Below, piece after piece: positions 4,714-57,908 of a DNA stretch of 64,000 nt; position 1 is the first letter of the stretch, and each line of letters opens with the position of its first letter. Made by a program: the position numbers and the translations under genes. This DNA is from Methylobacter sp. (GTDB taxonomy: Bacteria > Pseudomonadota > Gammaproteobacteria > Methylococcales > Methylomonadaceae). The stretch is taken from the NCBI GenBank assembly GCA_030679035.1, contig JAUXTH010000189.1:1-64000 (forward strand), read 5' to 3'. A model generated the notes under the pieces. It made no database searches. It was not told the origin of the DNA and was given only the letters and a program-made list of their open reading frames with translations.

Positions 4714-5760
4714 ATGAGCCCATCCGCTTTTCAACAAAACATCCTCGCCTGGTTTGATCAATACGGCCGCAAAGACCTGCCCTGGCAAAAAGACTTAACG
4801 CCCTACCGCGTGTGGCTTTCCGAGACCATGTTGCAGCAAACCCAGGTCGCGACCGTTATTCCTTATTTCAATACCTTTATAGAAAAGTTCCCCGATATAG
4901 CAAGTTTGGCAAACGCGCCTGTCGACGAGGTTCTGCATCTTTGGTCGGGACTGGGCTACTACGCCCGCGCCCGCAACCTGCACAAAACCGCACAGCTTGT
5001 TGCCGAACGAGGCCGCTTCCCCGATACGCTGGACGAACTGATCGCATTACCCGGCATAGGCCTGTCAACGGCGGGAGCGATATTGAGCATCGCTTTTAAT
5101 AAAAGCCAGCCGATTCTCGACGGCAACGTCAAAAGAGTATTGACCCGGTTTAGAGCCGTTTCCGGCTGGCCGGGCAACAGCGCCGTCAACAAAGAGCTAT
5201 GGGCCATCAGCGCCAGGTTAACCCCCCTGGATCGTGTCGCGGATTACACCCAGGCCATCATGGACTTGGGTGCAACCCTCTGTACCCGCAGCAAACCTGC
5301 TTGCGGGGACTGCCCGCTTAATGCCCGTTGTTTAGCCCGACTTGCCGATAATGTATCGGCATTCCCGACTCCTAAACCTGCCAAAACCTTGCCGGTCAAA
5401 CAGCTTACCTTGTTATTGCTGAGCGATGCCGATAACCGGATATTGCTGGAAAAAAGACCACCAACCGGCATTTGGGGCGGCTTATGGAGTCTGCCGGAAT
5501 TCGACAGCATTACGGCGGCGCACGATTGGTGCCTGACCAAAAACATTCAAATTACCGGTCAGCAGACTCTGGCAACCCGACGCCACACCTTCTCCCATTA
5601 TCATCTGGATTACACGCCGCTGCTGGTTCAAGCCGATAACCCTATAAATTTTGTGATGGAAGCCGACCAGACTGTCTGGTATAAAGTTGAGCAGCTTAAT
5701 AAGCTTGGCTTAGCCGCTCCGATTAAGCAGCTATTACAATCACACACGAGTATAAAATGA
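4714..5760 (+). CDS. mutY: A/G-specific adenine DNA glycosylase
   Basis: MutY removes adenine mispaired with 8-oxoguanine or guanine in base excision repair. Visible features are catalytic Glu37 in [10 protein letters not shown], a helix-hairpin-helix ([12 protein letters not shown]), the Asp of [10 protein letters not shown], and a [4Fe-4S] ligand set C-X6-C-X2-C-X5-C starting at about residue 190. The C-terminal NUDIX-like domain for 8-oxoG recognition begins near residue 225. Length (348) is normal. The start is 2 nt after the asmA-like stop, and the end overlaps yggX by 4 nt (ATGA). mutY-yggX is a conserved pair linked to oxidative damage and iron-sulfur protection. Confidence 0.95.
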
Positions 5761-6023
5761 CTAGACTGGTTAAATGCGTAAAGTTGGGAATAGAAGCCGA
5801 AGGCCTGGATGCACCGCCATTTCCAGGCCCTAAAGGCCAGGAGATATTTGAAAAAGTATCCAAACAAGCCTGGAAGGAATGGTTAGCCAAGCAAACCATG
5901 CTGATTAATGAAGGGAGATTAGCCAGCTTCGACCCGAAAACCAGGGCGTTTTTAGCTGAGGAAAGAAGCAAGTTTCTGTTTGAAGGGAACAACGACATGC
6001 CGGAAGGCTATGTTCCGCAGTAG
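5757..6023 (+). CDS. yggX: Probable Fe(2+)-trafficking protein YggX
   Basis: An 88-residue cytosolic protein that protects Fe-S clusters from oxidants and may carry iron. Family hallmarks are Cys7 in [11 protein letters not shown], the block [17 protein letters not shown], and the C-terminal FLFEG...EGYVP. It is translationally coupled to mutY. The stop codon TAG at 6021-6023 lies inside the first bases of a palindromic repeat (GTAGGGGC...). Enterobacterial homologues run a few residues past EGYTP, so the repeat may have trimmed the C-terminus. Confidence 0.93.
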
Positions 6024-6105
6024 GGGCAATCCCTTGTGGTTGCCCTAACCCAAATCCCTTGTGGTTGCCCCTAACTCAATGGGCGGGCACAAGACCCGCC
6101 CCTAC
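6020..6105. repeat. Palindromic GTAGGGGC...GCCCCTAC element filling the yggX-rho gap
   Basis: The element starts with GTAGGGGCAATCCCTTGTGG and ends with GACCCGCCCCTAC. The left half (AATCCCTTGTGGTTGCCC) is repeated in tandem. A single-unit 56-bp relative lies inside mpl at 57121-57176. It occupies the whole space between the convergent yggX and rho genes: it contains yggX's TAG, and its last base is the final base of rho's stop. It can fold as a large hairpin and may end transcription from both sides. Confidence 0.85.
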
Positions 6106-7361
6106 TACCGCTTCATCGATTCGAAAAATTCTGCGTTGGTTTTAAAATCCTTTAGCTTGCCGATCAAAAATTCTGAAGCCGCGGTTTCATCCATAGGCTG
6201 AAGAATCTTGCGCAAGATCCAGGTTTTTTGCAAAGTTTCGGGATCAACCAGATACTCTTCTCGACGGGTGCCGGAACGGTTGATGTTGATCGCAGGGTAA
6301 ATCCTTTTCTCGGCAATTTTGCGGTCCAGATGCAGCTCCATGTTGCCGGTACCTTTGAATTCCTCGTAGATCACCTCGTCCATTCTTGAACCGGTATCAA
6401 CCAGAGCAGTGGCTATAATGGTCAAGCTGCCGCCTTCTTCTATGTTCCGCGCCGCACCGAAGAAACGTTTGGGTTTTTCCAGCGCATTCGCATCGACACC
6501 ACCGGTCAATATTTTGCCTGATGACGGCACAACAGTGTTATAAGCTCGGGCCAGGCGGGTAATCGAGTCTAACAAAATGACCACGTCGTGTTTATGTTCG
6601 ACCAGACGACGCGCCTTTTCGATAACCATTTCCGCAACTTGTACGTGCCGGGTTGCCGGTTCATCGAAGGTGCTGGAAATGACTTCGCCGCGGACGCAGC
6701 GCTCCATTTCCGTGACTTCTTCTGGACGTTCATCGATCAACAATACAATCAGATAACACTCGGGATTTTGTTCCGCTATCGCCTGCGCCAGACTTTGCAG
6801 GATCATGGTTTTACCGGCTTTAGGCGGAGATACGATCAGGCCGCGTTGGCCTTTGCCGATCGGGGCGATCAAGTCGATCATGCGCCCGGTTAAATCTTCG
6901 CTGGTGCCGTTGCCCTGTTCCAGGACGAATCTTTGTTTGGCAAATAGCGGAGTCAGGTTTGAGAAGGTAATTTTGTTTTTGGTATTTTCGGGGGGTTCAA
7001 AATTGATCTGGTCAACCTTGAGCATCGCAAAATAACGTTCGTTATCTTTAGGCGGTCTGATCTTGCCGCTGATGGTGTCGCCAGTCTTTAAAGAAAATCG
7101 TCTGATTTGACTGGGTGAAACATAAATATCGTCAGGGCCGGCTAAATAGGAGCAGCCCGGCGTCCGTAAAAAACCAAAACCATCCTGTAAAATTTCCAGG
7201 ACACCATCGCCTGATATATCGTCACCGGCTTTTGCCTGTTTTTTCAAGATGGCGAAAATCAAGTCCTGCTTTCGCGATCTGGCTACGTTTTCAAGCCCCA
7301 GAGACTCCGCGATTTCAATAACTTCACTTATTTGTTTTAGTTTTAACTCAGTTAGATTCAT
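6105..7361 (-). CDS. rho: Transcription termination factor Rho
   Basis: A 418-residue hexameric RNA helicase-translocase, the usual Rho length. It has an N-terminal helical domain (residues 1-48) and an RNA-binding CSD fold with [16 protein letters not shown] (about 51-66). The RecA-like ATPase core has Walker A PPKAGKTM near residues 179-186 and Walker [11 protein letters not shown], followed by the Q/R-loop segments. The order trxA-rho on one strand with rhlB divergent matches E. coli. The 340-bp upstream gap may hold an autoregulatory leader, but I can point to no specific site. Confidence 0.97.
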
Positions 7362-7544: not shown

Positions 7545-7690
7545 TATGAGGCAATGATTGCTCCAGGCAATCATTCTGCATTCCCTCCATAACCCACAGG
7601 GAAGTGGGGAATGCAGATATTGCACGACTGCATGGATGCAGGAGGTAGAACAACGCAGGAGCAGTTGCCGAGGAGCAAATATCTGCCCAT
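7545..7690. repeat. Long dispersed repeat (copy 1) between rho and trxA
   Basis: This 146-bp block contains GCAATGATTGCTCC, CCACAGGGAAGTGGGGAATG, CAGATATTGCA and GGAGCAAATATCTGCC. The same modules recur at 61449-61562 and, partly and in the other orientation, at 21356-21436. The rest of the gap (7362-7544) holds the rho leader and shows no ORF. The repeat lies directly downstream of the trxA stop. Confidence 0.75.
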
Positions 7691-56270: not shown

Positions 56271-56480
56271 AATAGAACGCTGATGACGCGGATAATTATG
56301 ATGACCCAAAAAATGTAAGTACTCACCAAAAGCCGATTCTGAGTATCCAAAGCCAGCTTTGGACTCCAGAAAGTGTGCTATCGGAGTTCAAAGCTGGCTT
56401 TGAACATTATGATCAGATTACGCTGAGTAATTACAAAAGTCTTATTTAATCATAATTATCCGTGTCATCTGCGTTCTATT
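56271..56480. mobile_element. MITE-like element with 32-bp terminal inverted repeats
   Basis: The left end AATAGAACGCTGATGACGCG plus GATAATTATGAT and the right end ATCATAATTATCCGTGTCAT plus CTGCGTTCTATT match at 30 of 32 positions when inverted. The 210-bp unit has no ORF and carries in its middle a nested double hairpin (56347-56405, CCAAAGCCAGCTTTGGACTC...). It fills almost the whole gap between trpD and mpl. No target duplication could be defined. Confidence 0.75.
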
Positions 56481-56486
56481 ATAAAA

Positions 56487-57908
56487 TCAGCCGTTCAATT
56501 CATCCTGCAAGCGCTGATAAATGCCGCCGAAGCTGCCGTTGCTCATCAACACGAAATGCCCGCCATAACGCGCTTCAAATTTGAGCTTAGCGATGATTTC
56601 ATCCAGCGATGAACAGATCTCGATATTACCGGCGTATTTTTTCAACTCGCCCAAATCCCAGCCCATTCCTTCCGGTTGGTAGATGATGGCCAGATCAGCA
56701 TTGCCCAGAGATTCCGCCAGCGTTTTGGTATGTACGCCAAGGCGCATTGTGTTCGAGCGAGGTTCGACGATGGCAATGATACGCTCCTGCCCCACCTGTT
56801 TGCGCAAGCCGTCCAGCGTCGTTTGTATCGCGGTCGGGTGATGGGCAAAATCGTCGTATAAGGTCACGCCATTCCCTTCGGCTCCGCTCGGGGCAGGAAT
56901 GTTGGCTATCACTTCCATGCGGCGCTTGACGTTTTTAAACTGCGCCAGCGCGGCTATCGCATCCTTAGGCAGGATACCGACGTGTTTTGCGGCGGCTATC
57001 GCCGACAGCGCGTTGTAGACATTATGCTCGCCGGTCAGCGACCACTCGACACAGCCTTGCACTTGATTGTCCATCAGTACATCGAATTGGCTACCGTCTG
57101 CTTTAATCAATTGTGCAATCGTAGGGGCAATCCCTTGTGGTTGCCCTGATTGGGCGGGCACAAGACCCGCCCCTACCGAAATCACTGTCTTGGCAACCGG
57201 CGTCCAACAGCCCATCGCCAGAACGTCATTGATATTGGCGTCGCATTCGGGGCTGATAATCAGGCCTTCGCCGGGCACCGTCCTGACCAGATGATGGAAT
57301 TGTTTTTTGATCGCATCCAGGTCCGGGAAAATATCGGCATGGTCGTATTCCAGGTTATTGAGGATCGCGGTGCGGGGCCGGTAATGGACAAACTTGGAGC
57401 GCTTGTCGAAAAACGCGGAATCGTATTCATCGGCCTCGATCACAAAAAAATCGGACTCGCCCAGCCGCGCCGAAATACCGAAATTTAACGGAATGCCGCC
57501 GATCAAAAATCCCGGATTAAAACCCTGATGCTCCAGTATCCAGCTGAGCATGCTGGTCGTGGTGGTTTTGCCGTGGGTTCCGGCAACGCCCAGTACCCAT
57601 TTGTCCTGCAACACGTGCTCTGCCAGCCATTGCGGGCCAGATACGTATCTCAGCCCCCTGTTCAGCACCGCCTCGACTTCCGGGTTTCCGCGCGACAAGG
57701 CATTGCCGATAATCACCAGATCGGGTTTGCTATCCAGGTTCTCGGCCCGATAGCCTTCCATCAACACGATCCCTTGCTGTTCAAGCTGTGTGCTCATCGG
57801 CGGATAAACATTTTGATCGGAACCACTGACCTGATGCCCAAGCTGCCGCGCAATCACGGCAAGCCCGCCCATAAATGTTCCGCAAATACCTAAGATGTGA
57901 ATATGCAA
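56487..57908 (-). CDS. mpl: UDP-N-acetylmuramate:L-Ala-gamma-D-Glu-meso-DAP ligase
   Basis: A 473-residue murein-peptide recycling ligase. The N-terminal motif is HILGICGTFMGGLAVIARQL, the ATP site GVAGTHGKTTTTSML and the later blocks EYDHADIF and LYDDFAHHPTAI. It is about 15 residues longer than E. coli Mpl because of two in-frame repeats. A 56-bp palindrome gives [18 protein letters not shown] near residues 245-263, and a short repeat gives APSGAEG before VTLYDDFAHHP. Both lie in likely surface loops and leave the motifs intact. The product recycles tripeptides into cell-wall synthesis. Confidence 0.93.
   Translation of the reverse strand: MHIHILGICGTFMGGLAVIARQLGHQVSGSDQNVYPPMSTQLEQQGIVLMEGYRAENLDSKPDLVIIGNALSRGNPEVEAVLNRGLRYVSGPQWLAEHVLQDKWVLGVAGTHGKTTTTSMLSWILEHQGFNPGFLIGGIPLNFGISARLGESDFFVIEADEYDSAFFDKRSKFVHYRPRTAILNNLEYDHADIFPDLDAIKKQFHHLVRTVPGEGLIISPECDANINDVLAMGCWTPVAKTVISVGAGLVPAQSGQPQGIAPTIAQLIKADGSQFDVLMDNQVQGCVEWSLTGEHNVYNALSAIAAAKHVGILPKDAIAALAQFKNVKRRMEVIANIPAPSGAEGNGVTLYDDFAHHPTAIQTTLDGLRKQVGQERIIAIVEPRSNTMRLGVHTKTLAESLGNADLAIIYQPEGMGWDLGELKKYAGNIEICSSLDEIIAKLKFEARYGGHFVLMSNGSFGGIYQRLQDELNG
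56874..56897. repeat. Short CCCTTCGG...GGGCAGG repeat in mpl
   Basis: CCCTTCGGCTCCGCTCGGGG plus CAGG, translated PAPSGAEG on the gene strand. It is the same family as 12888-12911 in batD. It interrupts the conserved approach to the YDDFAHHPTA motif. Confidence 0.75.
57121..57176. repeat. 56-bp GTAGGGGC...GCCCCTAC palindrome in frame inside mpl
   Basis: It begins GTAGGGGCAATCCCTTGTGG and ends GCACAAGACCCGCCCCTAC. The two halves are GGGCAA..TTGCCC and GGGCGGG..CCCGCCC hairpins. It is the single-unit version of the element at 6020-6105. On the mpl strand it is open and adds about 18 residues absent from E. coli Mpl. Confidence 0.88.

Follow-up and report, generated by a model that had tools for sequence, protein, structure and literature searches.

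REPs are named "extragenic", and their conversion to protein sequence, as well as the reason why cells bear it, has been documented in few organisms. In Pseudomonas, REPINs consist of two inverted REPs with a linker and are tied to a REP-associated tyrosine transposase (RAYT); they are discussed chiefly as extragenic elements. An element of the same build was located within the open reading frame of mpl in a 64,000-nucleotide stretch of DNA from Methylobacter sp. (contig JAUXTH010000189.1, positions 1 to 64,000; hereafter the window, and its source genome G000).

Structure of the element in mpl

The open reading frame at 56487-57908 was identified as Mpl by a match to TIGR01081 of 675.5 bits (cut-off 388.7) that covers residues 2-471. 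The features of the gene and of the element are as follows.

56487-57908, minus strand: mpl, UDP-N-acetylmuramate:L-alanyl-gamma-D-glutamyl-meso-diaminopimelate ligase, 473 aa, TTG start (open reading frame, TIGR01081 and three Mur ligase domains)
57121-57176, no strand assigned: REPIN, inverted GTAG REP doublet in mpl (codons 245-263)
57121-57146, plus strand: REP half, AATCCC type, GTAG foot at 57121
57147-57151, no strand assigned: linker between the REP halves, 5 nt
57152-57176, minus strand: REP half, GGGTCTTGTGCCC type, GTAG foot at 57176

The element, which is in frame in mpl, is a REPIN: two GTAG-type REPs in inverted orientation form a doublet. As the preliminary description had correctly delimited it, it occupies exactly 56 bp (GTAGGGGC...GCCCCTAC); it reads in full GTAGGGGCAATCCCTTGTGGTTGCCC-TGATT-GGGCGGGCACAAGACCCGCCCCTAC, with each inverted half starting GTAGGGGC on its own strand. 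GTAG stands at the foot of both hairpins, at 57121 on the plus strand and at 57176 on the minus strand, and the hairpin-forming palindromes are paired in inverted orientation about the 5-nt linker. Folded as single-stranded DNA, the plus strand of the doublet had an energy of -18.6 kcal/mol (z -5.3; 0 of 200 shuffles equally stable), and the minus strand had a z of -4.1. The REP starts at nucleotide 733 of the coding sequence in codon phase 0, is stop-free in three of six frames, and reads as 19 residues. In the window the exact 8-mer GTAGGGGC has 6 occurrences where 1.03 would be expected, a number reached in 0 of 100 shuffles; with one mismatch allowed, no excess was seen (26 vs 34).

The insertion site in the Mpl protein

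The preliminary description placed the insert in the essential-fold region of the enzyme, and this was not borne out: the site is a variable loop and no essential-fold segment. Mpl was aligned using the query and 39 of the 80 loci found (L034 and L035, with a stop in the translation, were left out). Among these 39 other proteobacterial proteins, length varied most in the gap at residues 242-262, over a range of 18 residues. The best solved relatives by sequence and fold were 3hn7 and 3eag, and by sequence alignment 3hn7 carries a longer natural loop at the insertion site. The structure prediction that had been proposed for the loop was made using AlphaFold2 (mean pLDDT 89.3) and placed the insert between two beta-strands, at 238-244 and 263-267, with low confidence within the loop itself (mean pLDDT 60 for residues 251-260). 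The strand that follows the insert, described earlier as LLDG-like, reads AQLIKADGSQF.

Outside the insert, mpl of G000 and of a second carrier, G002, gave a dN of 0.016, a dS of 0.368 and a dN/dS of 0.045, and purifying selection acts on the insert-bearing gene. It looks to be still functional. The earlier suggestion that the enzyme may tolerate the insert is supported, because dN/dS is low on the rest of the gene and a confident model places the insert in a loop.

The mpl loop across the genus

Twenty-three genomes of the genus, including G000, were searched by protein. Orthologs of mpl were found in 22; G016, which is 72% complete, gave weaker Mur-ligase matches only. The GTAG doublet was present in two of the 22 orthologs (G000 and G002), so that strains with and without the insert both exist, as had been anticipated. 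The insert junctions of the two carriers are identical but for one base nearby, and the simplest reading of these common junctions is one insertion before the two split. In G011 the same loop holds an unrelated in-frame insert of 93 bp, and the remaining 19 orthologs have neither. The 93-bp sequence is itself a dispersed repeat, with at least 42 to 52 matches per genome in all eight genomes tested, 40 candidates per genome having been scored, which limits the counts.

The empty site reads KTSI-NSDAQWN-AQLI. The filled site shows a net gain of 14 residues (net +42 bp) and not the addition of 18 residues first proposed; the old loop has therefore lost about 14 bp. Conservation of the peptide in Mpl from genomes that lack the DNA repeat, which would have spoken for a native part of the enzyme, was looked for and was not seen: the peptide was absent from the 20 genus orthologs without the repeat and from the 39 other Mpl proteins.

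A further short repeat lies in the same gene.

56875-56897, minus strand: second short repeat in mpl, unrelated to the REPIN, in frame (residues about 338-345)

Of the 21 genus orthologs in which this site is covered, 7 have the repeat; a pattern made for it matched 11 times in G000, and its reversed control 0 times. The corresponding gap at 337-346 had a length range of 5 among the 39 other Mpl proteins, and in the AlphaFold2 model lies between strands 332-337 and 348-353. The encoded peptide is IPAPSGAEGNG, and G004 has a longer, apparently nested version at this site.

The REP family in the genome and the genus

Copies were sought using the pattern GTAGGGGC-N9-14-GCCC, which degenerate copies escape. 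In G000 it gave 88 matches against 3 for the reversed control, in 59 clusters; the 56-bp repeat in mpl was correctly described as a palindromic and dispersed one. Counts in the 23 genomes ranged from 1 to 122, with 118 in G002, and those of the reversed controls from 0 to 19; low genome counts are therefore not above background. The preliminary description also noted a relative between yggX and rho, both assigned here by NCBIfam, and this was confirmed.

6020-6105, no strand assigned: related element between yggX (5757-6023) and rho (6105-7361), 86 bp long, one additional half-unit lying inside it

The yggX frame ends on the TAG of a GTAG of this element, which also overlaps the stop codon of rho by one base.

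The term intergenic, used earlier for the repeat, fits part of the family but is too narrow. A cluster was scored as intragenic when an open frame had at least 60 residues on each side of the REP, spanning frames with a shorter side being uncounted; 14 of the 59 clusters in G000 lay inside such long frames, as did 14 of 69 in the G002 stretches that were fetched. Twelve of the 14 in G000 fall in 11 genes that could be assigned to a family: mpl, a cobJ-cobK type fusion, an ATP-grasp protein, recC, cmoB, bioH, a fadB-like gene (two clusters; under the model's cut-off), recD, a PBP1A-type gene, hypF and a RAYT (under the cut-off). The other two lie in L210, which had no family match, and in an mshL-type gene (L227), where the pattern match may be native sequence fitting by chance. 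The peptide of the mpl insert occurs also in unrelated proteins, for example RecD.

The resident transposase

Twelve Y1-transposase matches were found in the genome. One of these, at C143 (L209), adjoins the same REP and also contains it.

L209 574-1152, minus strand: C143 RAYT
L209 492-561: REP doublet beside the C143 RAYT, 12 bp beyond the 3' end of the gene
L209 809-834: REP in frame inside the C143 RAYT

The C143 RAYT is thereby the candidate cognate transposase of the GTAG REPs. On its other side no REP was present within the stretch read. Against NF047646 (REP-associated tyrosine transposase) it scored 69.8 bits, below the cut-off of 80, the REP dividing the match into two stretches; C117, a different RAYT of G000, scored 150.8 bits. 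In the G002 counterpart of the C143 gene this position is held by a full doublet. The motifs NHFH, LWQRNYYEH and YIQNNP fit the subclass 2.4 motifs NH[IFV]H, WQ and YIxNNP (PMC6006769), and by these motifs and its in-frame REP the C143 RAYT appears to match the published picture of that subclass.

Seven genes of the PNH[FIV]HGI type were read (two in G000 and one each in G002, G007, G010, G013 and G015). All seven, the C143 gene included, have a REP-like palindromic sequence between HuH and Tyr, as in subclass 2.4, the palindrome types differing among them, whereas six PDH-type and two PNHVH[IV]L-type genes have only 9-11 residues there. The RAYTs of L357 (G015) and L358 (G013) have a different GTAG palindrome, of the GTAGAGACGCGATTTATCGCGTCTC type, in frame in the corresponding position behind the HuH motif.

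A full-length RAYT of the C143 type was found in four of the five genomes with more than 60 REP matches (G000, G002, G007, G010 and G012) and in 2 of the 18 others (p 0.0078), with the threshold of 60 chosen after the counts had been seen. The two others are G013, counted for its full-length gene of 202 aa, and G015, and the palindrome of both is uncounted by the pattern. Five plasmid records held RAYT relatives, all with less than 60% identity.

Other loops shared by different repeats

The fadB-like gene was matched in 15 of the 23 genomes and has two sites. At site A, G000 and G002 have a GTAG doublet, whereas G020, G010 and G021 have another palindrome, CCTTCGAC...GCTCAGG, as does G013 in degenerate form; the site is empty in 9 of the 15. 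In G020 and G010 this palindrome appears nested, with one copy within the loop of another. Site B has the GTAG doublet in G000 and G002 and, at the same codon, a GTGG-footed doublet with another stem in G020, G011 and G007 (split over two contigs in G007); it is empty in 10 of the 15. Close orthologs of recD were found in 17 genomes, with the GTAG doublet in G000 and G004 and the CCTTCGAC type in G021; no recognisable repeat was present in the other 14, G002 included.

Across mpl, the fadB-like gene and recD, more than one repeat type has used four of the five sites, the genes having been picked for their REPs in G000. A concatenated tree, weakly supported at several nodes, was used solely to check that the users of a site were not all one clade.

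Conservation of the intragenic copies

The mpl doublet is identical between G000 and G002 over all 56 bp. Elsewhere in mpl the two genomes differ at 7.9% of positions, and at 29% of synonymous sites (91 of 313.2). Such identity is not explained by a plain neutral passenger. A comparison was made, post hoc, for the 27 of the 59 clusters that could be paired clearly within the G002 sequence fetched, the other 32 being left out. Six shared sites are intragenic (CobJ-K, CmoB, BioH, fadB-like A, fadB-like B and Mpl); sites had been picked by the exact pattern in both genomes, and pattern-fixed bases were therefore removed. Identity was seen at 148 of 151 free positions and, in flanks of 150 bp, at 1626 of 1800 (p 2.7e-4). 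For the other 21 shared clusters no excess conservation was seen (590 of 642 vs 5674 of 6254; p 0.18), and mpl alone gave p 0.07 for its free positions at the gene-wide rate. The excess in the six intragenic REPs is an unexplained hint and no proof of maintenance at the DNA level.

Origin and maintenance of the insert

We consider it quite probable (roughly 0.85) that a non-autonomous REPIN was inserted into mpl in the ancestor of G000 and G002, was moved by a RAYT of the C143 type, and has been tolerated in a loop. The doublet of inverted GTAG REPs would have entered the gene in that common ancestor by way of a single-stranded hairpin intermediate made by the transposase, swapping out about 14 bp of a tolerant loop and keeping the frame open. 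Its persistence would be favoured by its three stop-free frames and by an encoded peptide that fits in the loop; the peptide itself probably does nothing. We infer translation and mobility from the open frame, the REP family and the resident transposase. This account is supported by the empty and filled sites, the excess of pattern matches over the reversed control, the C143 RAYT with its REPs, the position and variability of the loop, the low dN/dS and the 11 other clusters with in-frame REPs in recognised gene families; the loss of 14 bp, by which the insertion is not clean, counts against it, as do the sub-threshold NF047646 score of the C143 gene and the unchanged doublet in G000 and G002.

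The neutral part of this account is where the conservation data bear. A possible but doubtful alternative is that the segment is kept as DNA, through hairpin-based repair, RAYT-linked replacement, conversion by other copies or a role of the DNA or RNA hairpin, and is translated incidentally. In its favour the six shared intragenic REPs exceed their flanks, with about 10 synonymous differences expected in free positions and 3 of any kind seen; these are only six sites, chosen by exact pattern, the 21 other clusters lack the excess, and mpl taken alone gives p 0.07. Identity of the peptide in two genomes whose mpl genes have otherwise diverged might also suggest that it was adopted for the function or stability of Mpl and is conserved as protein. 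This is improbable: constraint on the protein leaves synonymous change free, yet none was seen, 20 of 22 genus orthologs do without the peptide, its loop is modelled at low confidence, and it recurs in proteins as unrelated as RecD.

The assemblies are fragmented and MAG-like (216 contigs), so a decaying pseudogene or an assembly artefact was considered as well; it is very improbable, as the frame is open throughout, insert and junctions are repeated in a second assembly, and the gene combines its low dN/dS with a full-length TIGR01081 match. Nothing favoured a peptide native to Mpl from early on, with DNA that is like the repeat by chance; this is refuted by the absence of the peptide from the 20 genus and 39 other proteins and by the same DNA at many other places. 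A broader reading is offered tentatively, and with more doubt than belief: a few tolerant loops may be shared landing pads for unrelated palindromic families, and a REPIN once landed may be kept as DNA, synonymous positions included, better than the surrounding gene. If so, nature would have run an insertion-scanning experiment in this genus, and translation would be no bar to maintenance as DNA.

Relation to described elements

REPs inside subclass 2.4 RAYTs and intragenic GTAG REPs are already described. The available text of Di Nocera et al. 2013 (PMC3733652) surveys intragenic GTAG REPs, often doublets, that add 20-30 residues in frame to unrelated genes including recBCD, and describes a single instance in which recB of two Xanthomonas carries different REPs at roughly one position; as far as its main text goes, no "Methylo" organism is named. 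The present elements share with these the GTAG foot, the palindromes and the in-frame doublets in unrelated genes. They differ, on the same text, in that one genus shows sites that are empty, filled or filled by another repeat, the loops being shared with other repeat families. The sections available of Quentin et al. 2018 (PMC6006769) describe subclass 2.4 REPtrons of TnpA-REP (RAYT) genes, with double-foot REPs and a REP inserted between HuH and Y. The C143 system resembles them in NHFH, WQ and YIQNNP, in GTAG and CTAC at opposite ends, and in the in-frame REP of the transposase; unlike the insertion in the transposase treated there, the same element is here also in mpl and other genes. REP cleavage is known biochemically for other RAYTs, according to the part available of PMC8266576.

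Rickettsia palindromic elements (RPEs) are short palindromes found repeatedly in frame in unrelated genes, as the accessible text of PMC10969869 has it, and the mpl REPIN is like them in its in-frame insertion in protein genes. In the portions available, PMC10969869 gives RPEs a length of about 150 bp and PMC3733652 gives RPE-4 and RPE-6 a CGTC tag; their genus is obligate intracellular. The mpl element is GTAG-tagged and 56 bp long. Lacking both the CGTC tag and the length of about 150 bp, it works like an RPE but is not a true one. Searches of the literature joining REPIN, RAYT and "Methylo" found no paper in the collection covered, and those on repetitive extragenic palindromic and methanotroph gave nothing relevant by title. 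Judged by the available text of PMC3733652, PMC6006769, PMC10969869 and PMC8266576, the present comparison goes further in resolving empty and filled sites across a genus and in the reuse of loops by unrelated repeats. Close relatives with an empty, filled or differently filled loop make the tolerance of an enzyme for peptides from mobile DNA testable. For annotators, peptides of the kind of VGAGLVPA or VGAIPCGCP can signal a DNA repeat and no protein family.

Additional repeats

In G002, L347 2868-4475 is one long open frame with two in-frame REPs 133 bp apart. In hypF (L225 588-3002) a REP stands in frame, and by eye the stretch DCMDAGGRAM is like the 93-bp repeat of G011 mpl. A partial copy of the 93-bp repeat lies at 7622-7676 of the window, between rho and the next minus-strand gene. 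Between trpD and mpl, 56271-56480 contains an inverted repeat of 32 nt, its arms 94% complementary and separated by 146 nt, with a second inverted repeat of 20 nt inside, and looks like a larger MITE-like element.
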